DNA of 64,000 bases from Sipunculus nudus (Eukaryota; Annelida; Sipuncula; Golfingiida; Sipunculidae). Positions 1 to 61,339 of the stretch are shown here, in pieces. The stretch's first letter is position 1. Each line of letters starts with the position of its first letter. Both the position numbers and the translations under genes were made by a program. Location of the stretch: contig CM049314.1 of the NCBI GenBank assembly GCA_026874595.1, positions 68,444,300-68,508,299 on the forward strand, written 5' to 3'. The notes under the pieces are model-generated. The model worked only from the letters and a program-made list of their open reading frames with translations, ran no database searches and had not been told where the DNA came from.

Positions 1-941
1 GTAATTCAAGCAGATGTTCTTCTTGTAAAGAATTAGAAACTGCGGTACTCACAAAATTGATAATAAATGATGCACAAATGCCAATTTATCAATTGTAAAG
101 ACTTACAATCTTTGTAGCTGTGTGTAGACAGGTTAGAAAATCTTAAAGACAACTTTATGCAACACATAACACGTTAGGTGTCATAATTTTTAAACGGTAC
201 TTTATGGAGAATTAATGCCCTGTATTTGTACTTATTCCATTAATAGATGCAGAGGTTTAGTTGAACAAGGAAAGAGTATGGCGGAGGAGCAGCTGTTGTA
301 GTAAATAACCATAATTTGTACACAGAGCATTTTCTATACTTTTAAGTCCAACCTTTTGAAGCAATAAAAATTATTTATAATCCTTTGTTTCATGCCCAAT
401 ATATAAGTACAACGTACTGCAGTTTCTAACATAATATCACAAAATGATGCAAATATCCTATTGTTATGCAACAGATGAAACTGGATAATCTAAACTTAAA
501 AATTAAATTTCAAGAATTCTAGTCATTAATTATCAGTTCAAAGAGATGATGTACACATCATTTAATACTTCCATTAAACATAAAACCTGTGAACTGAGAG
601 AAAGCATTCATAATATATGTTAATGATATTATTACTAATTATCAATAATATTTAGTCTCAAATAATTACTAACCTCTTTAAAAGAGCTCTGAAGAAGAAA
701 AGCCTTTTAACCAGATCTGCTTATGATTATTAACATAAGATTTATTTTCTCTGGGGCATATATGACAAAATGTCTTTCTCATCATAATGATACAAGACGA
801 AAAAGTATCAACTGCCTGACTGATTGATAAATTACATATCAACTATCCTGCAAACACAACAACAACTTTAGGTTCGTTAAAAAAATATAGATGGCACTAC
901 GATGGCACAGATCTGAACATGACCTCTAAGGAGGTTAAAGG
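1..941 (-). other. Glypican 3' UTR and downstream flank
   Basis: This is AT-rich sequence after the TGA of the glypican gene. I see no coding exon or recognisable repeat. A canonical polyadenylation hexamer lies about 200 bases after the stop, so the 3' UTR is probably short and most of positions 1-720 would be downstream flank. Longer 3' UTRs using weaker signals (e.g. an ATTAAA at 561-566, minus strand) cannot be excluded. Confidence 0.6.
741..746 (-). terminator. Candidate poly(A) signal AATAAA of the glypican gene
   Basis: TTTATT on the plus strand reads AATAAA on the gene strand, about 196 bases after the stop codon. It is the first canonical hexamer downstream of the stop. Cleavage would be expected around 715-730. 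Confidence 0.5.
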
Positions 942-1150
942 TCAACGGTGAAAACCTAAGATGCCCACCAACAATGTCACGATAACAAGGACTTGTGAAT
1001 ATTGTATATGCGTTGCAGCGCCCCCTGGATTTTGATGCAGATTGCTGTTAGGTCGCACAGTGCTGTAGGGTGGACCTCTGTCTTTGCTTACAAACTCAAA
1101 CCCGTCGTTGTCTCCGATTTTATCCTCTGGCTCACTGGGCCTGTTGGGTT
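942..1150 (-). CDS. GPC: Glypican last coding exon: linker and GPI-anchor signal
   Basis: Two bases plus 68 codons and a TGA stop follow a T-rich acceptor (TTTTTTTATAG). The exon starts PNRPSEPEDKIGDNDGF, an acidic polar linker. It ends with small residues (NPGGAA, exon residues 40-45), a short spacer, a hydrophobic run VLVIVTLLVGILGF (residues 53-66) and a terminal His-Arg. That layout, a small-residue cleavage site, spacer and uncharged hydrophobic tail at the extreme C terminus, is a GPI-anchor addition signal, as all glypicans have. Identification rests on the tail, on the phase fit with exon 2437-2608 and on position. No ORF convention was needed, since the frame runs straight from the acceptor to TGA. 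Confidence 0.92.
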
Positions 1151-1323
1151 CTATAAAAAAAAAAAGGATTATGTTACTGTAGAGTAGTAATGATACATTA
1201 TCTATTCACATGATACTTATCCCAATACTTAAATCGTGATATGGTACATGATAAGATATATTAAAGAGGTATCAGAATTCAATACTCTTCTTTGCTTGTT
1301 CGCCATGCTGTTGCTTCATTTAC

Positions 1324-1400
1324 AATACTATAAATACTACATTATAATACTATAAATATTACACTATAATACTATAAATCCCTGATATTAATACTATAAT
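1324..1400. repeat. 22-bp tandem repeat, about 3.5 units
   Basis: AATACTATAAAT-type units begin at 1324, 1346, 1368 and 1390, an exact 22-bp spacing. AT-rich minisatellite within an intron. Confidence 0.8.
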
Positions 1401-1910
1401 TTGCCGATGAGGATGCTGTCATCCCCAGTGTTCCTCCGGATTCTCCTTGAAAGATACACATCTAATGACCGCCAAACTCTCCGCAGAGAGATTCCCACCA
1501 GGAGACTGTCCTTAAAATTCTTTCTTAATGCAAGTCCCTGCTCTTATATAAAAAAAATACAATACTGCTCATGTAGCCTCCACTTGGTATTCACTCGATG
1601 AGGTACACCCCCAGTAATGAATAATGAAACAGCCCCTTTAGTTGATTTTGATTGGGCAGTATTTAGCCATATTTTAGATGAATGCTTTATACACGCTGGG
1701 CCACTGACTAAGACAGAGAATGCTGGTGGTAAGTTTGGACTTTTCATAGGTAGGGCATGTACTGTTTAAAGTATCAACACAAGGACATACAGGATGACAC
1801 CAGTACAATACTGACTATATGCACCACAAATTACCTGTGCACCAGTGAATAGTTACAGCATGATTATATCATGGGCTGACATGATCAAGCAATCACTGTT
1901 TTACAGACTA

Positions 1911-2347
1911 AACAAATGACCCATGGGTCATGACACTCAGCTGATTGACTACTTGGTATTTGCTATAGTGTGATACCAGATGCAATTATATGTTTGGTAC
2001 TGGTTGTCCTAAGGACACTGTACAGAAGCCTGTAATTTATCAAAATGAGTTAATCCAAAGAATTAGGGTGATCAATGCATTAGTGTTTCAGATACTTCAG
2101 CTTTTGTAACAAATTTTTAATTATTCTAGGGGGTATTTACGAGCACCATAGCTCAGAGGATATGGGTAACAGAGACCTAATTTCAGGTATCCAAGGAGAT
2201 TTTTCATGGACCACCCTAGATGTTAAGTTTTTAGATTCCAGGTCCAGTGGTTAGGATTTGTGCCCTGCTAATGAACGGCCGGACGGTTTGATGACAGACA
2301 ATGACCCATCACTATAGCCCAGCATGACTGAAAGTCAGCTGAGCTAA
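1911..2347 (+). mobile_element. CAGCTGA-ended interspersed element, copy 1
   Basis: It begins AACAAATGACCCATGGGTCA, then a CTCAGCTGA motif, and ends with AGTCAGCTGAGCTAAAA. The same left and right ends recur at 37483-38926 and 56122-57990. The interior shares ATATGGGTAACAGAGACC and GATTTGTGCCCTG blocks with the other copies. It has no coding capacity and is probably a non-autonomous DNA element; the superfamily is not determined. Confidence 0.7.
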
Positions 2348-2436
2348 AATTTGCATTTGACTCTGATTATGTAATCATTTTAAAATGGTGGCAATCTATT
2401 AAAAGTTTAACTGTGGTTATAAATAACAACACTTAC

Positions 2437-2608
2437 TCCCTTGTGATATAACATGGGGATTGTACGAGTTATAACCATCCCCGCTTCCGCTCCCACTGCC
2501 AGACAACCCAAAATCACTGTCATCATTGGGGAAGCCATAATCCTTCCGTCCCTTCTGGAAGCCATTCCAGCCGGGGTCATCACCTTGCATGCGCTCTCGT
2601 TTCTGTTT
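2437..2608 (-). CDS. GPC: Glypican exon: heparan sulfate attachment region
   Basis: The exon is 57 codons plus one base and ends before GTAAGTG. Residues 7-33 are polar and acidic (MQGDDPGW near the start, then FPNDDSDF), followed at residues 36-45 by SGSGSGSGDG. Four Ser-Gly dipeptides next to acidic residues form the classical xylosylation site for heparan sulfate chains, located as in GPC1 and GPC4/6. Unlike the vertebrate proteins, no Cys pair follows the SG cluster. Two AG dinucleotides six bases apart can serve as the acceptor (exon starting at 2608 or at 2602). Both keep the frame and differ by Lys-Gln. The last base (A) joins AA of the final exon to make a Lys codon. Confidence 0.93.
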
Positions 2609-2611
2609 CTG
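2602..2611 (-). promoter_or_regulatory. Tandem splice acceptor (two AGs, 6 bp apart)
   Basis: On the gene strand the sequence reads AAACAG|AAACAG|AAACG. Either AG leaves the downstream frame intact in phase 0. Using the first adds Lys-Gln to an already basic KQKRER stretch just before the heparan sulfate attachment region. Confidence 0.6.
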
Positions 2612-4377
2612 TTTGATGACACAAGCACATTATATTGTGAATCATTATAACAATTTTCAATGTAAGGCAGCACATTATAGATATCTTATTGAAGTTGAGG
2701 ACAAAGTTGAAGTGTGGCTACAAGTGGTGTCCCAATTAATCAAATATATCCATGATTGTTCATTTTACTTCATAATAAATTAACTTTAACAGATTTTTGC
2801 ATAATCAGTCAAATAATTTTGTATACAAATATACAAGTAAGTCATTTTATCCTGAAAAAAAAATAATATATTTTTAACCTGTTAGAGATATAAGAAAGAC
2901 CACACAAAGTAGTGTACAGCTTAAAATTAACCTTGTGCAGCTGACAATTCAGATGTAAAAGTCAGACTGAATTTATTCTGTCTATATATTTCAGGTAATA
3001 ATTCAATACAGTAAATTTCACAGTCATACAGGAGGTACATAAAATAATTGATTCATAATGGATCATTGGTCATTTTTTTTGTCTTTCATCAAAAAAGTTT
3101 TTAACAACCAGATCAGACCACTAGTGGCTATCTTGTTTGACTAATAAACAATTTTACTGGCAGGTGTGGGTTTGAATCTGACAACTGCAATTATCCCAGA
3201 GTCTAAAAATAAATGTGGTAATTTACAAGATAACCCTGTTTTCTGGTGTATAATTTACTTCTCTGGGAATGGAGATGGCAGGCTGTGTGATTAGAAAAGC
3301 ATTGTGCAGATTAGCTGATTATATTGATTGGTCTTTTCCTTTACAATCAATTAAACAGGTCGAATTTGTATGTTATCAGATTTATAATATTTAATATAAA
3401 AATATATAAATATGTATTTGGACTTTTCCCAAAACAAAATTTTAATAGCTCTTCCCCAGGTGGAACCTTAAAGTCAGGGTGCGACTGATAATAAGGATGG
3501 TTCTTATGTTAGGAATTTTACAGTATATGATTATGCTTGTACATTCAAAGAAGTATATTTGTTAACATCTCAAAAATCTGTCATAAATAAGGAAGGCCAG
3601 ACACAAAGTAAGGAAAACTGGTGCAAAATCTCTTGAACCTATGTATGATTAAAAAATCTTGATCGATACAATTACAGTATGATTAATTTAATCTTTCCAT
3701 GATTTCTGGAGATGATTCCCTTAAGCAGAAGGCCATCAAATTACAAAACACCAATGTGCCTTAATGCACCAAAGTGAGTCTATCCTGAGGGTCCTTCAAA
3801 TTTGGAAAAAAAAAGAAACTAATTACTTGGAATGTTCAATCAATATATGATCATCTACTGCTTTTGTCTTGCAATCATCAAACAAGATTTAACAAATATT
3901 TCCTGGCTGACAGTGGTTTTCTCTAGTTCATGGTCTACACCTGTTCTTTTAGTTTCAATATCAGCTGACAGATGGCAGCATGTGAAAGATCAACCTAGTT
4001 TTGACTCATTTGTATATCTGTTTGCCCTAATCTGATTTTGTGTAACCCTTACAATTGTTTGTTCAAGTATGTGTCCAAGTTATGTCTATAAACAGCCTTT
4101 TTTTTGTAACCTACCCTGTAATGTCTTTGTGTTTTTAAAAAATTCCCCCTGTAATGTCTATGAGTTTATGTTTTGTTTAACTTGCCCCCGTTATGTCTAT
4201 GAGTTTATGTTTTTATAACTTGCCACCATAAAATCTATGCATTTATATTTTTGTATAACTTACCACTGTAATGTCTATGAGTTTATTTTTTGTATAACTT
4301 ACCCCTGTAATGTCTATGATTTTATATTTTTTTAACTAACCCCTGTAATGTTTGTGTGTATATTTTGTATATCTTAC
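2609..4377 (-). other. Glypican intron (1,769 bp, phase 0)
   Basis: The gene-strand 5' end (4107-4377) is a minisatellite that includes the splice donor. The rest (2609-4106) is AT-rich and I see no exon or repeat family in it. Confidence 0.9.
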
Positions 4378-4401
4378 CCCCGTAATGTCTATGAGTTTCT
4401 G
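4107..4401 (-). repeat. Minisatellite (about 39 bp) that includes the exon end and splice donor
   Basis: Eight units with period 34-40 bp begin near 4107, 4139, 4179, 4217, 4257, 4296, 4334 and 4371. On the plus strand each reads roughly AACTTACCCCTGTAATGTC then TATGAGTTTAT. The last unit is the exon end itself, encoding LIDITG, plus the true donor. On the gene strand the intronic units at 4263-4257 and 4302-4296 carry GTAAGTT after GGG or GTG, the unit at 4340 carries GTTAGTT, and two others carry GC in place of GT (GCAAGTT). Confidence 0.85.
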
Positions 4402-4504
4402 TGCTAGCCTCGCCATGACATCAGTGCCTGCCCTGTGACCGCCGGCCACCTCAGGATTCTGTAACTGTTCTGTGATGTTAAACTCTGGTACTGGCTTGGT
4501 ATAA
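4378..4504 (-). CDS. GPC: Glypican exon: NPEV segment between core and GAG region
   Basis: The exon is one base plus 42 codons, following a strong pyrimidine-rich acceptor (TTGTTGTTTCAG) and ending at a complete Gly codon before GTAAGAT. It encodes SYTKPVPEF then NITEQLQNPEV. This matches the glypican segment after the CWNG motif, where GPC4/6 have RYLPE followed by NNPEV. Asn9 (NIT) is a potential N-glycosylation site. The rest, DVMARLAQKLIDITG, is helix-like and corresponds to the last core helix before the glycosaminoglycan region. It has no cysteine, as expected here. The last ~20 coding bases and the donor form one unit of a minisatellite that continues into the next intron. Exon size and phases (2 in, 0 out) fit both neighbours exactly. 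Confidence 0.93.
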
Positions 4505-4637
4505 CTGAAACAACAACAAAAAATTCTAGAATGAGGTTGTTTTTGCAATACAAAACCACTTCTCTCCCCTCCCTATGGGCCTCACATCCCCAAATTTAAG
4601 GAAAAAACTTTGGACTATCTCAAAAGTCACAGCATTC

Positions 4638-5028
4638 ACAAATAATTTCTATTTTTGCTCATTAAACCTTGAAAAATAAGGTCAAGGTCATCAGGTTTCA
4701 AACACTTATGAGATTTGGGTATAAACATTTCATGAGTCAAATTTCATTAAAATATACTGAGAGGTTCAAAAGTTATATGTTTACAAATGATTTCTATTCT
4801 GGCTAATTTGACCTTGATGATCCAGGTCAAGGTAACCAGTTTCAAAACTCATCAAAGAATTGGGTTGAAATAATTAGTGTTTCAAATTTGAGCAAAATGC
4901 GTAGTGGTTCAAAAGTTATCACATTAACATATGAAGATGATGCTGACTGTGGACAGTGCAGCTGATGACAACAGACCAAACACTGCATGTCTCCCCCATG
5001 GGAGGGGTGACATAATCAGAGTTCAGAA
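4638..5028 (+). repeat. Repeat with AGGTCA half-sites, two units of about 145 bp
   Basis: Two diverged units start at 4638 and 4783 (ACAAATAATTTCTAT / ACAAATGATTTCTAT). Each continues with a (TGA/AAA)CCTTG...AAGGTCAAGGTCA-like pair and a GTTTCAAA block. The right end has CTCCCCCATGGGAGG, a near-palindrome. No coding capacity. Confidence 0.6.
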
Positions 5029-5381
5029 TAAACCAGATCCATAATCAAATTATGACAATTTCAAAGACATGTATAATTGGTTAAGTGGTAAATGTCAGAA
5101 TACATAATATACATAAATCATTAAATGTGTGTGAGATCACTGCACAGAACAGACCTGTTTCATGATCTACAAAGTTGTTGAGCAGATTGACACCAGATGG
5201 CAGTTAATGCCAAGGTCCTTCCATGTAAAACTTCTGATTAACTAATATGACTGCTAGTAAATTACCCTCATGATGTCATGACTGATCTATTTGACTGAGA
5301 GACAAAATTATTCAAATATTTTGGACTGCTTTAAATGCAAGACAGTTTAAAATAATGAATAAAATAATCCAGTGTTTTTAA

Positions 5382-5832
5382 GGTGCCCATTCACCAACCT
5401 TACCAACAATATCTGGCTTCCTGTTGTATATTTGAAAGATCTCAGGGTAATTTTGGTTATGAAAAGTTTTATACAATCTTTGTGAAGAATGCATAAACGT
5501 ATTTTTCAACAGCATATTTGTAAACACAGTAATGTTGACAAACAGGATTAAAATGTAACCTAAGGTGGTAGGTTACAAATATTTGGAGGTAGAAAGGTAA
5601 CTTGATGCAAAACCCCATTTGCAAAGCTCTGGTTTACCAGGCTTGTTGCCTAATGCCATTGTTAAATTTGTTTTGGTGATTTTGGTGGGCCCCAACATAT
5701 TATAAATATGTTGATATAAACAAAACAAGCAGCCTGTATGTGGTGATAAATACATTTCCTGGCCTGTTTGTATATAAAAGGACCAAGGGATTACTTTTAG
5801 TTTATTAAGGTCAGCTAGCTGATCGGGCCCCT
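5382..5832 (-). mobile_element. TTAA-flanked MITE, copy 1 (451 bp)
   Basis: It lies between TTAA at 5378-5381 and TTAA at 5833-5836. The imperfect terminal inverted repeats are GGTGCCCATTCACC and GGGGCCCGATCAGC (right end reversed). It is the reverse complement of copy 9926-10376, with the same 451-bp length. The TTAA duplication and TIRs point to piggyBac-type mobilisation, by analogy. There is no transposase, so it is non-autonomous. Confidence 0.75.
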
Positions 5833-6039
5833 TTAAATATATCCTGAAATTCAAATAGCCGCATTTACTGAATATAACAATAGTGGAATTTTAAAGAGTC
5901 ATATGCTTGACTTGCAGGTTATGATAATGTAATAGTACTGATAATAAAAAACAAATTCAACATAAACTCCATATTCTGCATATCACATTGTATATTTGTC
6001 CCTTTTAGAAATTGTTATCAAAATGAATGTATTTTTTTT

Positions 6040-6260
6040 TTTGTTTTTATTGGAGGTACCCACCTCCATATTTTAATGCTAGTTAGCTTTACTGTAAGTA
6101 CGTTTATGTACATCTGCAAAATTCCATTCAGGTTTTTTAACTATGTGACAGAGCATTATCACATGCTTACTCTTGTTTTATATCCTGGTACTAACTAGGC
6201 CCAGTGACTACTGCACCTGTGGGGACACTCAGCATACCCATAACTTTCATACTTGCAAAT
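6040..6260 (-). mobile_element. SINE family A, 5'-truncated copy
   Basis: Shares GCAAAATTCCATTC, the TATCACATGCTTAC-type block and the TGCACCTGTGGG block with the copies at 28130-28350 and 31115-31462. The tRNA-like head is absent, so only the 3' body remains. Confidence 0.6.
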
Positions 6261-6829
6261 CGAGTGTCATAATCATTAGATCATGTAGTTCCACAAACAG
6301 CAATTATGATGAACATTAGTTCCCAGTGAAATTTTGCTTTGGATGTATAACTATACAACATTCTAGCATCTGGATAGGAAAGACCAAATGTTGAATGTTT
6401 AACTCTAGGGTTTATTATCGCTCACTGCTCGGGGCATCCAGGAGCTTGTAAAATAAAAGAGAGTAAAATACAAACAAAAAGTTAATGCAATGTGTTGCAT
6501 AATTATCTTAATAATTAATAAAAGATATGCTAATTATGAAGATACACACTAATAATACATTCATACTAATAATATAATAATAAACTGGTTAAAATTATAT
6601 GTTTTAAAAATGAAAACTCAAAAAAACTGTATGAAATGTCAATCTAAAGATCAAATCTTTTCAACATTCTGAAAAAAAACAAACTTGACAACTTTTATTA
6701 ATATCACTACAATAAAATAATTAAACACCTTATAAGTCTGTAAAAAAATAACATTAATTAACACCAAGCCTAACATAAGTCACAAATATCCTGTAAGGGT
6801 GAATATTTAGTGATGAATACCAAACTTCA

Positions 6830-7560
6830 GCAGAAAATTTCACTGACATGACGACATGGGGAAAGGATATGAGAACGATTCCTGTCACAAAAAAGGAGCT
6901 CTAAACGAGATTAGCCGAGAGCTTTCAAGATTACTGTGAATTGTGTTTACAGGAAAGCGTCCCTTTGGGATACCCGCCTGTCTGTGCAGTCTTGATTACA
7001 TTGTCTTTTGCAGCATTATAGTCTGTCTCTAGGGCCGGTGTTCAAGGTCATGTAGGGGGCGTGTGGGGCAGCTCCTTCATAAAAACAGGTACATATGCAC
7101 GGAGAATAGCTGGTATCTTTGTTGCACATTTTCGTGCTGATCATATTCTTGGAATACTCAGGTCTAGCAGTTGTCAACATCTATTATTGACTGGACTCCA
7201 AACAGACTTTCAGGAAAAACATGCTGGCACCCACCATGTGACATCCTTATTAAACCAGTCACTCTCTGGCGTTTTGTCAGCCAGCTTGGAAGAGCACGGG
7301 AGACTCGCCCCCAATGGCACAAAGTGATAAATTAGGACCGGGATAATTGCCAAATTAATTCATGGGATCAAAGCCTGATAGATTACTTTTGCTCAGTAGA
7401 CAGTCTGGCGGGCTCGATATATTGTTTGGGATGATTCATCCTGAGACACCAAAGCAGCAGACAATAGAACTTCCTGCTGGTCATTGTGCTGGGAAACAAA
7501 TATTTGACATCTGACATCTTTTCCTCATTATCTGTCTTAGTGTCACGGAATTCATACCCC
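6830..7560. promoter_or_regulatory. Less AT-rich island, candidate intronic regulatory element
   Basis: Markedly less AT-rich than its surroundings and free of the repeat families seen elsewhere. Around 7330-7385 it packs TAATT-type homeodomain cores, GATCAAAG (TCF/LEF-like) and TGATAGATTA. The open frame at 7061-7327 has no recognisable protein character. A regulatory role is inference from composition and motifs only. Confidence 0.25.
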
Positions 7561-9239
7561 AAAGTTTCCTCAATGCCAGCCTTTATTTTCTCAATGCCAA
7601 ACTATTTGTAAAGGAATATGGATCACTCCTGCTTATGAAATATAAACAAGAAGGATTACTACTGATTTTTTTGTGTATGTGTTCTTGTGTTCTAATATAT
7701 TGTACAAGATACCTTGGTAAATTTACTTTTTATTTCTGTAAATTATCTCAGTTCTTTTTTTCCCAACTGGAAACCCACTATATATATACAATCCCAATGA
7801 GTGCAAATACATAATTTCATATACATATATTACACAATTAAATATATATGCATTTATCTTATAAAAAAAAATTAAATATTAAAAGTTTACCACAAAATAT
7901 GCAGTTACATTCACATACACCAAACACCTTTATATTCGAAAAAAAAAAAAGAATTTAAATAATTGTCAAGATTTATTGGTAAATAAAATGGTAAATATGG
8001 CCTTATCCATAAGCCTTATTCTTAAGACAAGCATATTACAGATAATATTATCAATCAATATTACAGGCTCTTGTCAAAAAGACTGAGATTTATATTCTTC
8101 TAATATTGAGCCTTAATTATGTCAATAAATGAGTACTTTGATCATCATAAGTATTAACATTTCTCTTTGCTCTCTACTGTGTATTCTAATTATGGTACAT
8201 TGGGTTCTGGTGTATTCTGATTGATGACTACTTGATCAAGGAAGTTTTGTAGGCTTAGAGCCTTCCTAACTCATGATCATGTAAATCAAATTTTAACTAC
8301 AACAGTACCTGTTGTGAGGGGATACCTGTGGGATATTGCCAAAGTGCCCTACATTTCAGGTGTCCCTTGATGAGAGGTAGGGACATATGCAGGTGGGGAT
8401 CAGCAATTAAAAGAAAAGAATTATATGCCTATTAGTAAATAAAATAAAATGTTTTTATGTAAAAATATATAAGAGAAAAATATCAATGTGGGCATCTAAC
8501 ACAAGAAAGCAGGTTTTCTGATGCCATGATTAAAAAAGTCTTTATACAGCTGGTTCATTTATAAACACAAAATTAAATAAATGATGGATCAGGAGTATAA
8601 TTTCATAGAAATAGTTACTATTTACTAAAAGAATTATTCAATAAAATATAGTATTTATAATATTCCTTCATTATATATTCTTTCTGGATAAAAAAATAAA
8701 TGTAAATAAAAGTCACCCTGCAAACCGAACTTGTTTTTGAATTTAAATTTACCATGTGCAAACCTTCAGGTAATTCAGGTGTTTAGTAATAGGCCTGGAA
8801 TTGTGAGGGCCCTTATAATCACTTCAATTATTGGTTCTTTACCTTTGAATCAATTCTCGACTCAATTCTTACTTTTTGAGACCTTAAAAACTAAAAGCAA
8901 TTTGGCCAAAATGAATTTTTGTTCTCTCTCTGTATATGTTTCCAATTGAGTGGTGTGGACCACCAGCAAACAATTAAAGTAGAGTTGGGGCACATATGTA
9001 ACAAATTAAGGGCTCCTACATCATAAAACTGCTCCATCAGATTTGAGAGGACTTTGCAATGGTACAAAAAGAAATGGTTAAAAAAAAAATAATCAAAATG
9101 AATCCATTAGAGGTTAATAATTGTTTACAATTTAATCAATAGCTTGCAAATCAATGCATGGTTTCTTCAGTGCACTGTCACACCCCTATTTATTAGTTAG
9201 TGCTTGATGACAAAATGAAGGCATTATAGAACAGGTTTC
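7561..9239. other. AT-rich intron sequence, nothing recognised
   Basis: Short A/T runs and TATATA tracts near 7780-7860. I see no exon, SINE head or TIR element. Confidence 0.5.
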
Positions 9240-9397
9240 CTATGAGATTTTTATAGACCTCCCTGGATATTCAGTTACATGTGCCTAGGTTCAACAGTGT
9301 CAAAACATCCTACTCTAAGGTACGGACAGACATAGAGACAGACAGACACTGACCGATCACTATAGCTCAGTTGACTTATGGTCAGCTAAGCTAAAAA
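9240..9397 (+). mobile_element. CAGCTGA-ended element, right-end fragment
   Basis: Starts within the GGAGATTTTT...GACCTCCCTGGAT block and ends in CTATAGCTCAGTTGACTTAT plus GGTCAGCTAAGCTAAAAA. The GGACAGACAGACA-type stretch before the end matches the other copies. The left part is missing or too diverged to see. Confidence 0.6.
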
Positions 9398-9719
9398 CTG
9401 TAAATGTGTATCTTTGTTTCAACCATCACTAAAATTAAAAATATATCCTTGTATTTAATATGTATGGTAATAATAATGTCTCCTTAGGGACAATATTCAA
9501 ACATGGGGGGAAACAAATTCTTCCTTTCACACTGAAATAATGTTTATCAGTCTTAGTGACTAATATTTTGTTAAATTAAAACATTGGTATATTTACACAG
9601 AAAGTATTTGATTACATATGTGACAGGAGATGTTCCTAATTTAATAATGGTGTATCTAACAATAATTTTACATCTCCTGTGTGGGCGTACCTGAGAAATG
9701 CCATTTAAAGAAAAAAGAG

Positions 9720-9875
9720 GAATACTGAGTGTGTGGGAAGGGGGTCACTTCAAAATTTCCCCATATATCCTTAGAAATTTAACATTATTTTGTGATAGGG
9801 CCAATGCAACCTCATCTATCAGAAACCCAGCCAGTGTATCAACCTGATACTATCAAGTGGGTGAACTTGCAGTGC
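9720..9875 (+). repeat. Dispersed repeat, partner of 62510-62640
   Basis: Shares the ordered blocks CCATAT, ATCCTTAG(G)AAATTT, TGCA(A/G)C(A)CC and GTATCAACCTGATA with 62510-62640 in the same orientation. Two copies only in this window; class unknown. Confidence 0.55.
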
Positions 9876-9925
9876 TATCTATAATATTTAGAATGAAATT
9901 AAACTGGTCTTCAAGTGCAAGTTAA

Positions 9926-10376
9926 AGAGGTCCAATCACCTTTCTGACCTTTATAAACTAAAGCTAATTCCTTGGAGTTATGATAAAAACAGGCTGGGAA
10001 AACAGGCTGCTTGTTTTGTTTTTATCAATGTGTTTATAATATGTGGGGGCTGCCAAAATAATTTAAACAAAATCAACATGGGCATCTGGCAGCAAGACAG
10101 ATAAGCCAGAGCTTTGTAAATGAGGTTTTGCAACAAGTGACCTTTCTACCTCCATATATATGCAACCTATCACCTTAGTCTACATGTTTTTTTCCCTTTT
10201 GTCAACAGAAGCTGAGTTCATAAAAACTCTGTTGAATAACAAGTTCATACATCCTTCACGGAGGCATATTATATGAACTTTTCACAACCAGAATTACCCT
10301 TATATCATTAATATATACACAGAGAAAGCCAGAAATCATATAAATTCTTTTTCAAATGGTAGGTGAATGGGCACCT
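9926..10376 (+). mobile_element. TTAA-flanked MITE, copy 2 (451 bp)
   Basis: It lies between TTAA at 9922-9925 and 10377-10380, with ends AGAGGTCCAATCACC and (reversed) AGGTGCCCATTCACC. The interior shares the CAGCCTG/AAACAAAACAAG, CTGCCAAAATAAT and TGCAACCTA blocks with the other copies. It faces copy 1 as an inverted pair 4.1 kb apart. Confidence 0.75.
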
Positions 10377-50807: not shown

Positions 50808-51950
50808 ATATATATATCATATGTTTCATGACACAGCCTAAAATGTCCGTAACATAAGAACCTGAATCCATATTTCATGACATAGCTTATAGAATTTACA
50901 TAATAGAGAGGATAACTGTCTTTTGAATCCATGTTTCATGAACAGCCTATAGTGTCTGTAACATAAGAACCTGAATCCATTTTTCACGACATAGCTTATA
51001 AAATTTCCATAATAGAGAGGATAACTGTCTTTTGAATCCATGTTTCATGAACAGCCTATAGTGTACATAACATAAGAACCTGAATCCATGTTTCATGACA
51101 CAGCCTATATAGTTTCAATAATAGATAGTATAACTGCCTTTGAATCCATGTTTCAAGACACAGCCTATATAGTTTCAATAATAGAGAGGATAACCGTCTT
51201 TGAATTGATATTTCAAGACACAGAATAAAGTGTCCATAAAATAAGAACCTCTAGAAATCCATGTTTCATGACACAGCCTATAAAGTTTAATAAAAGAGAG
51301 GATAACCGCCTTTTGAATCCAATTTTTCGTGACACAGCCTAAAGTGTCTGGAACATAGGAACCTGAATCCATGTTTCATGATACAGCCTATAAAGTTTCC
51401 ATAACAGAGAGGATAACTGCCTTTTGAATTCATGTTTCATGACACAGCCTAAATTGTCTGTACCATAAGAACCTGAATCCATTGTTTTATGACAAAGCCT
51501 ATAAAGTTTCCATAATAGAGAGGATAACCGCCTTTTGAATCCAATTTTTCATGACACAGCCTAAAGTGTCTGGAACATAGGAACCTGAATCCATGTTTCA
51601 TATCACAGCCTATAAAGTTTCCATATCAGAGAGGATAATTAACTGCCTTTTGAATCAATGTTTCATGACACAATCTAAATTGTCTGTAACATAAATATCC
51701 ATGTTTCATGACACAGCCTATAACCTTTCCATACATGAGAGGATAACGGCCTTTTGAATCCAATTTTTCATGACACAGCCTAACGTGTCTGAAACATAGG
51801 AACCTGAATCCATGTTTCCTGACACAGCCTTTATTGTTTCAATAATAGAGAGGATAACTGCCTTTTGAATCCATGTTTCATGACACAGCAAAGTGTCTGC
51901 AATCATAAGAGAGGTTATCAACCTCTGTTTCAATGTTTCACATAACACAT
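50808..51950. repeat. Dimeric satellite array, about 110-bp higher-order unit
   Basis: Two related monomers alternate: one of about 61 bp (AATCCATGTTTCATGACACA, then CCTATAAAGTTTCCATAATA) and one of about 49 bp (same start, then CCTAAAGTGTCTG...AACATAAGAACCTG). Around ten dimers are present and copies have diverged by point changes and small indels. Minus-strand frames 50838-51041, 51175-51372 and 51718-52014 are products of the array, not genes. Confidence 0.9.
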
Positions 51951-56121: not shown

Positions 56122-57990
56122 TAACAAGTGACCCATGGGTCATGACGCTCAGCTGACTGGGAAGAGATTTGCAAAAGGAAATTTTATCACCTGAATGGTA
56201 GTATATAACAATTCAACTGAAGCATCAAACAGATTAAACAACAGGCTGAAATTGTGTCTGTATTAATATATCTCAAAAATAGAGAAAAAATGTTTAAACT
56301 TTAAAAAAAAATACAGGTGGCTCCACCAGTCTGCAGAAACTAATAAAAACACTTAATGGTCAATATCCATGCAAAGAAGCATGGTGGTCTCTGGATTTGT
56401 TGTTCAGATACTTCAGCTTTTGTATCAAATTTTCCATTATTCTGAGGGATACTTTTGAGTTCTATAGCTTGAAGGATATGGGTAACAGAGACCTAATTTC
56501 AGGTTTCAACAGACACTTTTCATGGGCCTCTTGCATGACAAGAATGAAGATTCTAGGTCCAGTTGTTACAATTTGTACCCTGTTGACAGATGTCCACATC
56601 TTTAAAGGTCTCAAAAATAGAGAAAATAATTAGTAAAAATTTGAAAAAAAATAGAGTTGGCACACACAGTCTGCTAAAACTGATGGAACATGTCATGATC
56701 ATTATGTATGCCAAAAATCATGAGCATCAGTGTTGTAGTTATTGAGATACTTGAGTTTTTGTATCAAATTTTTCATTATTCTGGGGGGTATTTTGGAGCC
56801 ATACAGCTTAATGGATATGGGTAACAGAGACCTAATTTCAGGTTTCAATGGAGACTTTTCATAGGTCTCCCTGTGTGTCAAGAATGAAGATTCTAGGTCC
56901 AATTTGAACCCTATTGACAGATAACTACATCCTTTACAGTCTCAAAAATAGAGGAAAAAATTGTAAAAATTTGAAAAATACAGGTGGAGCCACCAGTCTG
57001 CAGAATCTTATGAAACATCTCATATGTATGCCAAAAATCATGACTATCAGTGATGTAGTTAATCAGATATTGAAGTTTGTTTATAAAATTTTTGACTATT
57101 CTGGGTGGTACTTTGGGGTCCCTTAGCTTGAAGGATATGGGTAACAGAGACCTAATTTCTGGTTTCCATGGGCACTTTTCATAGGTCTCTCAGAATATCA
57201 AGAATGAAGATTCTAGGTCCAGTCTTTACGATTTGTGCCCTGTTAACAGATGTTCACATTTTTAAAGGTCTCAAAAATAGAGAAAACAATTTGTAAAAAA
57301 TCGAAAAATACAGGTGGTGCCACCAGTCTGCAGAAACTGATGAAACATCTCATGATCAATATGTATGCCAAAAATCATGACCATCAGTGATGTAGTTAAT
57401 GAGATATTGAAGTTTTTGTATGAAATTTTTCACTATTCTGGGGGGTACTTTGGGGCCCCAAAGCTTGAAGGATATGGGTTACAGAGACCTAATTTCTGGT
57501 TTCCATGGAGATTTTTTATAGGTCTCTTAGAATGTCAAGAATGAAGATTCTAGGTCCAGTCTTTACGATTTGTGCCCTGTTAACAGATGTCCACATTTTT
57601 AAAGGTCTCAAAAATAGAGAAAAAAATTCGTAAAAAATAAAAAAATATAGGTGGCGCCACCAGTCTGCAGGAACTGATGGAACATCTCATGATCAATATG
57701 TATGCCAAAAATCATGACCATCAGTGATGTAGTTAATGAGATATTGAAGTTTTTGTATGAAATTTTTGACTATTCTGGGGGGGGGGGGGTACTTTAGCTC
57801 GAAGGAGACCTAATTCCAGGTTTCCAAGGAGATTTTGCATGGACCATTCTGGATGTAAAGTAAGAATATTCCAGGTCCAGCGGTTATGATTTGTGCCTTG
57901 TTAACGGACAGACGGCCGGATGGCCGGACGGATGATGGACAAAGAGTAATCGCTATAGCTCACATGACTTACAGTCAGCTGAGCTAAAAA
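56122..57990 (+). mobile_element. CAGCTGA-ended element with five-fold tandem expansion
   Basis: The left end contains the palindrome TGACCCATGGGTCA (56129-56142) and GCTCAGCTGACT (56147-56158). The right end has AGTCAGCTGAGC (57973-57984), its exact reverse complement. Between them a unit of 320-339 bp repeats, with CTGGG-run landmarks at about 56441, 56780, 57100, 57437 and 57774. Each unit has ATATGGGTAACAGAGACC and GAAGATTCTAGGTCC blocks and a GGTGG(C/T)(G/A/T)CCACC palindrome. Frames inside are repeat artefacts. Confidence 0.8.
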
Positions 57991-58396: not shown

Positions 58397-59545
58397 TGTA
58401 TCCGCCTAAATCAGAGTGGAACAGGTGAAGTGAGGCATGGATTGTGTGGCAAGGGGAAATAGAGTGAAGTGTTGCATATTAGCATGGATGTCTGCAGCCA
58501 AATTGTGTATGTAGGTTGCGCCACCTACCACAAAAACCAGAAAGCCGTCCAAGTTGAATACATATGCAAAATTTAAGGCAGATAGATCAAACCAATACAT
58601 GTATATGAGTGATTTTAGCCCACGACATACAAAGAGATGGACGCTGTGCAAAAATGGTTGCAGGTGACGCCACCAGTTTTGCGTATGATAAAGAGCTATG
58701 AGAGAACTATAAACATGCAAAACTTTGGCCCAATCGGTCAAACGGTTCCCAAGATATGAGCTTGGATGTCTGCTGCATAAACTAGAATGTAGGTGGCGCC
58801 ACCTGTCATAAAATCGAAAAAGCTATCCAGGATGTATAAACCTGCAAAATATTTAGCAGATATGTCAAACCACTGCCGAGATATGAGTGATTTTATCCCA
58901 TGGCAGACAAACAGACAGACGCTGTGCAAAAGTGGTTGCAGGTGGCGCCACCATTTTTAGTGTATTTTATAAATTAGCTATCCAAGGGCTACATTTGTAT
59001 AAAATTTTTAGCCTGATCAGTCAAACGGTTTCCAAGATATGAGCTTGGATGTCTGCAGCATAAACATGAATGTAGGTGGCGCCACCTGTCATAAAATCAG
59101 AAAAGCTATCCAGGATGTATACGCATGCCGAATTTCAGGTGAATAAGTCCAACCAATGCAGAGATATGACTGATTTTATCCCAAGGCAGATGAACAGATG
59201 GACACTGTTCAAAAATGGTTGCAGGTGGCGCCACCATTTTTTGTGTATGTTATAAAGCTATCGAAGGGCTACATTTGTGTAAAATTTTTAGCCTGATCGG
59301 TCAAACGGTTCCCAAGATATGTGGGTTTATGTGTGGAAACAGACGCACAAACGGACGCAGTGTGCAGAGGAAAGGTCAGAGGTCAAAACAAAATCAGGGC
59401 GCAGCAGTTCACATGTGACCCAAACATAATCCCGAGTTTTGTAAAATTCCGCCCAGCGGTTACGGAGGAGTTCTCCGGACACCAACGCTGCCGCCGCGGC
59501 CAGCTGAAAACATAGTATCCGCAAAACTCTGTTTTGGCGGATACA
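58397..59545. mobile_element. TIR element built of GGTGGCGCCACC repeats (about 1.15 kb)
   Basis: The left end TGTATCCGCCTAAATCAGAG and the right end, reversed, TGTATCCGCCAAAACAGAG form terminal inverted repeats next to TA. The interior is a tandem array of about 284-bp dimers. Palindromes GGTGGCGCCACC or one-base variants occur at 58514, 58673, 58792, 58941, 59075 and 59224. The right part (59330-59510) is CpG-rich and unlike the rest. There is no transposase; probably a TA-targeting MITE. Confidence 0.7.
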
Positions 59546-60055: not shown

Positions 60056-60247
60056 GTATCATCACCCAATATTAACTGCAGCATAATTATGCCTAAATTC
60101 CTGAATGGAAACCATGTAGGCAAGTTCCAAGACCAAAACATCCTCAACTGTAACAATTTAGTATAACCAAAAGGCATATCCCCATATTTCAGGAAGGAAA
60201 ATCTTTCCAGCTCTTATTTATTCAAATAAAAGAAAACAGACACTTAC

Positions 60248-60501
60248 CTCCCGACTTTTTCACCAGTCCAGCACTGTTCTTTGTGGGATTTGAACTTGGC
60301 ACTTTTGCACATCTGGTCAGCCAGTTGGCTAAAGAAACTGCGTGACTTTTTGAGAGTTGTTAAGAACTCCTTCAGGTTTTTACTCAACGTGGTGTTAACT
60401 TTGGCAATGTTCATGTATTTCACCGATGTCTCCAGCTGGGCTGCATCTCTCGTCGTCTGTTTTAGCTGTGATGTTTTAGGATGACCACATCTTGTTACAA
60501 C
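60248..60501 (-). CDS. GPC: Glypican exon: C-terminal part of the cysteine-rich core
   Basis: This internal exon of a glypican has 84 codons plus two bases. It starts in phase 0 after the acceptor TTTGCAG and ends with AG before the donor GTAAGTG. It opens VVTRCGHPK, which lines up with VFQGCGQPK in vertebrate glypicans, and near its end has QCWTGEKVG, matching the family ECWNG landmark. Cys 5, 65 and 77 occupy the three family cysteine positions expected here. Asn36 (NTT) is a potential N-glycosylation site. Glypicans are extracellular heparan sulfate proteoglycans held by GPI that modulate Wnt, Hedgehog, BMP and FGF signalling. The two left-over bases join the first base of exon 4378-4504 to make an AGT (Ser) codon. 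Glypican identity is strong; placement in the GPC1/2/4/6 (dally-like) branch is moderate. Confidence 0.95.
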
Positions 60502-61339
60502 CTGCAAATATATATATACACAACCCCTGTAATAAACCCATATCTGTATACTGGTATATGTAAAACTAAGTCCGCAGTTTATGACTGGCACAATTTATCA
60601 ATTCATCAGCTGATCCAAGTGAATCCATACAATTGATAAATCAGACAAGTATATTTACAAACAAAGTTATTATAATTGTACTTAACATGTTTATATATAT
60701 TTTGCATTTTATTCAAGAGATCTATCTGCAAATATTAGCTAACTTCTTGCCATTCAAATTACATACAGTTTTGGGAATATATATGGTCTTATCAGTGCCA
60801 CAAATGGAGTGTTGGACACTCTCTGATGTTAACTTCAGTGACAAGACTAACATATGGTAAAAATAATGGAGAAACATTTTTAATTCAAAGTTACATTATT
60901 TCTCACTTACATTTTACTTAACATCTGATTAATTAAAACAGTTATATTTATCAAAAGGACCTGCCTGACAGTCTACCAAACTACTTTAGTTTTAATTTTC
61001 TCCTTTCCAAATTTGAAAGCCAATGTCTAAGGAAATATACAAAATATCTAATATATCAACAGTATTATATTTCATAATGACAGCATCTGAATTATGCAGT
61101 TAAACTCTCCAGTTGGTGACAGAATGTTAATAAGGGGGTTATTTTGATCAATTCAGTATTATCTGGTTAAACACTGAAACCAGTACATGGCAATTATAAA
61201 GGTCACCTGACCAGTGTTCAAATATACCAAGACCTAGTAGACAAACAACAATTATACTGAAATGTCTGGACAAATAGCACAAAGCACTGAAACAGTAACC
61301 CTACAACAGTAACTCAATAATCACCAAGGATATCTGAGA

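Follow-up and report, generated by a model that had tools for sequence, protein, structure and literature searches.

A tandem array at a glypican exon/intron junction

The window analysed here, a 64,000-nucleotide stretch of one contig (C9) of the 1.43-Gb Sipunculus nudus genome, carries part of a glypican gene on the minus strand. The Pfam Glypican family matched this gene at window positions 60504-60244 and, beyond the window, at C9:68529995-68530714. The exon that concerns us (Table 1) gave no Pfam family match on its own. The preceding exon alone scored 38.6 bits and the two exons joined scored 60.9 bits, above the cut-off of 26.4 bits, which bears out the glypican identity proposed in a preliminary description of this DNA. 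When the joined peptide was compared with solved structures using phmmer, the best match was glypican-2 (E 0.0026); the alignment ran to residue 115 of 125, and the last six residues, LIDITG, fall outside it. Read on from the donor at 4377, which we took as the true one from the reading frame, the gene continues in frame through SGSGSGSGDG to VLVIVTLLVGILGFHR and a stop codon, as expected from the heparan sulfate sites and glycosylphosphatidylinositol (GPI) signal described earlier. Both are predictions, and the GPI signal was judged by eye.

The upstream intron, as we place it, would run from 60247 to 4505, a distance of about 56 kb. This intron also holds other long tandem arrays (50821-51910, 56271-57782 and 58476-59321; periods 50-337). 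Farther along the gene, the tandem acceptors at 2608 and 2602, six bases apart and in the same phase, could add or drop two residues. On the minus strand of C9:68436300-68444299, two long open frames of 502 and 528 amino acids extend from about 3044 down to 1; the second resembles a reverse transcriptase by eye and perhaps belongs to a retroelement downstream of the glypican gene. A second glypican locus lies on the same contig at 20.38-20.41 Mb, where an exon near its end reads ...NGQHVEYIDI. None of the six donor stretches from this paralogous locus (L049-L054) has an array across the donor; one of them (L050) has a two-copy 13-bp repeat from the sixth intronic base.

Tandem Repeats Finder (TRF) reported an array of about 39-bp units at 4146-4398 on the minus strand (score 308). 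The segment 4050-4504 scored 339, whereas none of 500 dinucleotide shuffles scored above 55 (periods of at least 20 counted); a chance origin of the array is thereby ruled out. Laid out from their donors, eight units, each starting at the higher coordinate given in Table 1, span 4398 to about 4097 and are followed by a small ninth remnant, which was read by eye below unit 8. The units are 32-40 bases long, with the far end of unit 8 fixed by us at 39 bases, and are 55-88% identical in pairs. The consensus unit is 39 nt long and open in the frame of the exon (LIDITGVSYTKNK). Both the eight-unit, 39-bp layout given by the preliminary description and its joint unit of coding end, donor and intronic bases were thus recovered, and its GTAAGTT, GTTAGT and GC units are all present.

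Table 1 Features of the glypican gene and its array in window positions. A slash marks the exon/intron junction in a donor or donor copy.
Feature	Positions	Strand	Description
Preceding glypican exon	60248..60504	-	Pfam positions 327-423; donor GAG/GTAAGTG at 60247; 60504 is where the Pfam match starts, not an exon boundary
Glypican exon ending LIDITG	4378..4504	-	127 nt, ends in phase 0; acceptor TTTGTTGTTGTTTCAG; reads YTKPVPEFNITEQLQNPEVAGGHRAGTDVMARLAQKLIDITG
Array unit 1	4362..4398	-	Last 21 coding bases, true donor GGG/GTAAGA at 4377 and intron start
Array unit 2	4324..4361	-	Weak donor copy GGG/GTTAGT at 4340
In-frame TAG	4336..4338	-	Within the unit-2 donor copy (GGTTAG); met by products of donors beyond 4340
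Array unit 3	4285..4323	-	Strong donor copy GGG/GTAAGT at 4302, 9.58 bits
Array unit 4	4245..4284	-	Strongest donor copy, GTG/GTAAGT at 4263, 10.85 bits
Array unit 5	4207..4244	-	GTG/GCAAGT at 4223
Array unit 6	4168..4206	-	GGG/GCAAGT at 4185
Array unit 7	4136..4167	-	Dead donor copy GGG/GGAATT at 4146
Array unit 8	4097..4135	-	Donor copy AGG/GTAGGT at 4114, 8.57 bits, on a par with the true donor
Ninth-unit remnant	4079..4092	-	TTTATAGACATAAC; without a donor
Next glypican exon	2437..2608	-	SGSGSGSGDG, likely heparan sulfate sites; placed from frame and splice signals
Last exon, coding part	942..1150	-	Hydrophobic C terminus, likely GPI signal; stop 944-942; placed from frame and signals

Strength of the donor copies and products of their use

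To score the donor copies, we trained a nine-position matrix on 52 picked donors from the same genome. Its source was 45 exon ends from 63 Pfam Cpn60/TCP-1 matches (the other 18 comprised 11 on small bacterial-looking contigs, 3 that looked like long single exons and 4 terminal exons), to which we added the window exon at 60244 and seven ends of glypican exons. Of these 53 stretches, all but L021 yielded a donor pick, and a few picks are doubtful. By this matrix the true donor is mediocre, scoring 8.55 bits, above 23% of the picks. The copies at 4302 (above 54%) and 4263 (above 81%) outscore it, as the ranking in the preliminary description had it, and the copy at 4114 (23%), which that description did not mention, ties with it and matches it in strength. 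These three lie 75, 114 and 263 nt, respectively, from the true donor. The copies at 4340, 4223, 4185 and 4146 all scored 4.03 bits or less. Energies of the duplex with U1 RNA gave the same leading four sites (4302, -10.3 kcal/mol; 4114, -9.7; 4377, -9.2; 4263, -9.1), although on energy 4263 comes out no better than 4377.

Bacterial-looking contigs were also noted in the host assembly. GroEL-type matches with identical scores occur at nine places on eight contigs (C61, C62, C66, C72, C73, C75, C89 and C99), and COX1 matches with nearly equal scores at nine places on eight contigs (C60, C61, C62, C66, C72, C74, C75 and C89). On C89 each of the two genes appears twice, with about 2.04 Mb between the copies, as would result if the reading had gone twice round a circular genome of that size. 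Among the matches listed, the best 80 GTDB loci share no more than 58% identity with the bacterial-looking oxidase, and these contigs perhaps represent a divergent symbiont.

As a control, we searched 49 introns, left after removal of three with implausible picks (L005, L008 and L010), over a span of 270 nt beginning 10 nt beyond the donor. One site equal to or stronger than the intron's own donor was found in 6 of the 49, and two in none. With the threshold set at 8.55 bits, 7 of the 49 had one or more such sites, 1 had two and none had three, whereas the glypican intron has three in the same span; because each pick is the best site near the end of the match, these control counts run low for rivals within about 70 nt. 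TRF found repeats in 12 of the 53 control stretches, none of them over the donor; the nearest to such a case is the short repeat of L050.

We then joined seven donors to the acceptors at 2608 and 2602. From 4377 the reading frame stays open through SGSGSGSG to the GPI-type last exon; from none of the others does it. The donors at 4302, 4263, 4223, 4185 and 4114 each add 13 codons before the TAG at 4338-4336; with 4340, the extra 37 nt put the next exon out of frame and lead to a stop within it. A truncated protein, and never a full one, is therefore predicted from each of the six spare donors that we tried, in line with the 13 codons, the TAG and the loss of the heparan sulfate sites and GPI signal set out in the preliminary description. 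The TAG lies 33 nt upstream of the junction when 4302 is used and 72 nt upstream when 4263 is used, and another junction follows; because of this position, the mRNAs would likely be degraded by the usual rule.

Origin and decay of the units

Neither the array nor its unit was found elsewhere in the assembly. A search of the whole genome with the 295 bp of the array returned a single copy, the array itself, and a search with the consensus unit, allowing up to three mismatches, returned three places, all inside the array; because these searches skip simple repeats and common words, they do not prove absence. On this basis, and short of such proof, we rejected a mobile-element origin. The preliminary description spoke of a splice site 'captured' by a minisatellite. 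The joint exon/intron unit stands, but since the unit was found nowhere else in the genome, the event is better worded as tandem duplication of the exon/intron junction. About 39 bp over the exon end (21 coding bases, the 5' splice site and about 18 intronic bases) would have undergone repeated tandem duplication, at a time remote enough for the copies to drift apart to their present identity; because the units are so degenerate, the array is probably old. A consensus unit of 39 nt without a stop in the exon frame implies that the earliest copy would have done no harm, irrespective of the donor chosen. Intron gain by tandem genomic duplication is a kindred idea, but it concerns the making of new introns, and none was seen here. 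Degenerate arrays of this kind generally vary less than uniform ones. No structured RNA of Rfam matched positions 1-10000 of the window at the gathering threshold.

Selection on the spare donors was considered and set aside. Among the seven intronic units, the mean match to the consensus was 6.0/7 for the donor hexamer, 6.1/7 for the coding-derived part and 5.3/7 for the other intronic columns, which are gapped, partly through the short unit 7. GT is lost from three of the seven intronic donor copies, in two of them to GC, which can act as a weak donor. Because 20 of 32 six-column windows, the donor window included, are as conserved as the donor hexamer or more so, this window is unremarkable. 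The pattern looks like uniform decay and does not point to upkeep of the spare donors, but it may be compatible with selection on units 3 and 4.

Comparison with known arrays and likely effect on splicing

Judged by its anatomy, the glypican array is a new locus of a known arrangement, in which a repeat array covers the end of an exon together with the 5' splice site there, as in human CBS, ABCA7 and IFI6. It has the true donor inside the first unit, usable-looking donors in the units and, as in the CBS form, coding bases in the unit. The primary papers are said to be Lievers 2001 for the CBS variable-number tandem repeat (VNTR) and Turri 1995 for the IFI6 minisatellite, the latter a title in the references of the IFI6 source cited below.

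According to published accounts, the CBS repeat is a 31-bp VNTR at the exon 13/intron 13 boundary (PMC5188458, PMC1395315), and its name, c.1444_1467+7(16_21), reads as 24 coding and the first 7 intronic bases per unit (PMC2630376), at odds with the term non-coding used in PMC5188458. Coding and intronic bases share one tandem unit, the same architecture as in the glypican array; however, CBS has 16-21 units, varies in length and shows an association with enzyme activity, whereas the glypican array has about eight degenerate units of about 39 bp. The 25-bp VNTR of ABCA7 includes the donor of exon 18, and a donor opens every unit; when the donor of the next unit is used, one unit is retained and the mRNA is out of frame (PMC5954066). 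It resembles the glypican array in containing the true donor and having a donor in each unit, but is described as starting at the donor, without coding bases, and as longer, strongly length-variable and measured in RNA. In IFI6 (6-16, G1P3), two downstream units of a minisatellite are reported to serve as donors, giving three mRNA species (PMC4526556). This is likewise a minisatellite supplying multiple splice donors, but its isoforms are documented in use. A literature search on mollusc glypican splicing found nothing relevant.

We consider it likeliest, with a probability of roughly 60%, that the array is a tolerated relic with leaky, unproductive splicing. The duplications would cost little and be tolerated because the first donor would still give normal mRNA. 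U1 snRNP could bind several of the donors, most transcripts would choose 4377, and occasional choice of 4302, 4263 or 4114 would yield mRNA with the early TAG and two exon junctions downstream of it, which would probably be degraded. In favour of this reading we count that only 4377 keeps the frame, that the unit was found only at its own locus, that three copies equal or exceed the true donor in a span where no control intron has three sites of that strength and one has two, and that the donor hexamer is no better kept than the coding-derived part, with GT lost from three of the seven copies. An equivalent human array, that of ABCA7, does leak one-unit retention, adding a stop codon (PMC5954066). 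Against it, the strongest copies, 4302 and 4263, are undecayed, which weak selection could also explain, and the donor columns are somewhat better kept than the remaining intronic ones, whose alignment is gapped. Published work suggests that, of competing strong donors, the downstream one can win when U1 is plentiful; in that case the leak would be large rather than small.

Another explanation, less probable but to be taken seriously, is that splicing practically never takes place at the spare donors, with exon signals or the position of the first donor deciding the choice, so that the array is without effect. Several copies have indeed decayed, and 6 of 49 control introns also have a nearby site whose strength equals or exceeds that of their own donor, but here three copies match or beat the true donor at short distances and the exonic end has been copied with them. 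It is unlikely that the row of donors is a kept switch, by which U1 or SR protein levels in different tissues would shift use to 4302 and 4263, send the TAG products to decay, lower glypican output and allow copy number to tune the effect. Such a switch would fit two copies that outscore the true donor and one that ties with it, a set of three seen in none of the 49 controls, and the truncation predicted from all six spare donors tried. In published work, more CBS repeats went with lower CBS activity (PMC5188458), and ABCA7 repeat length was inversely correlated with ABCA7 expression (PMC5954066). However, conservation in the donor columns does not exceed that in the coding-derived ones and GT is gone from three of seven copies; moreover, ABCA7 unit retention is given as constant across repeat lengths, with exon 19 skipping varying instead (PMC5954066), and the nearest measured case thus speaks against tuning by copy number through spare donors. 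We are slightly more doubtful still that the row is a working dimmer of glypican, in which splicing at units 3-4 would send a regulated share of transcripts to decay and alleles differing in unit number would alter that share. It is very unlikely that the extra donors are supportive, with U1 along the array strengthening recognition of the exon; a mediocre true donor after an intron placed at 60247 to 4505 would suit such a role, but a neutral array predicts identical anatomy.

The array is, on present evidence, a tidy instance of a known arrangement. It would provide a further case, outside the human ones, of a minisatellite in which a 5' splice site and coding sequence are copied as one, and a natural experiment in donor choice by the spliceosome where near-identical sites follow one another. 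If the length of the array varies, it could affect a morphogen co-receptor.
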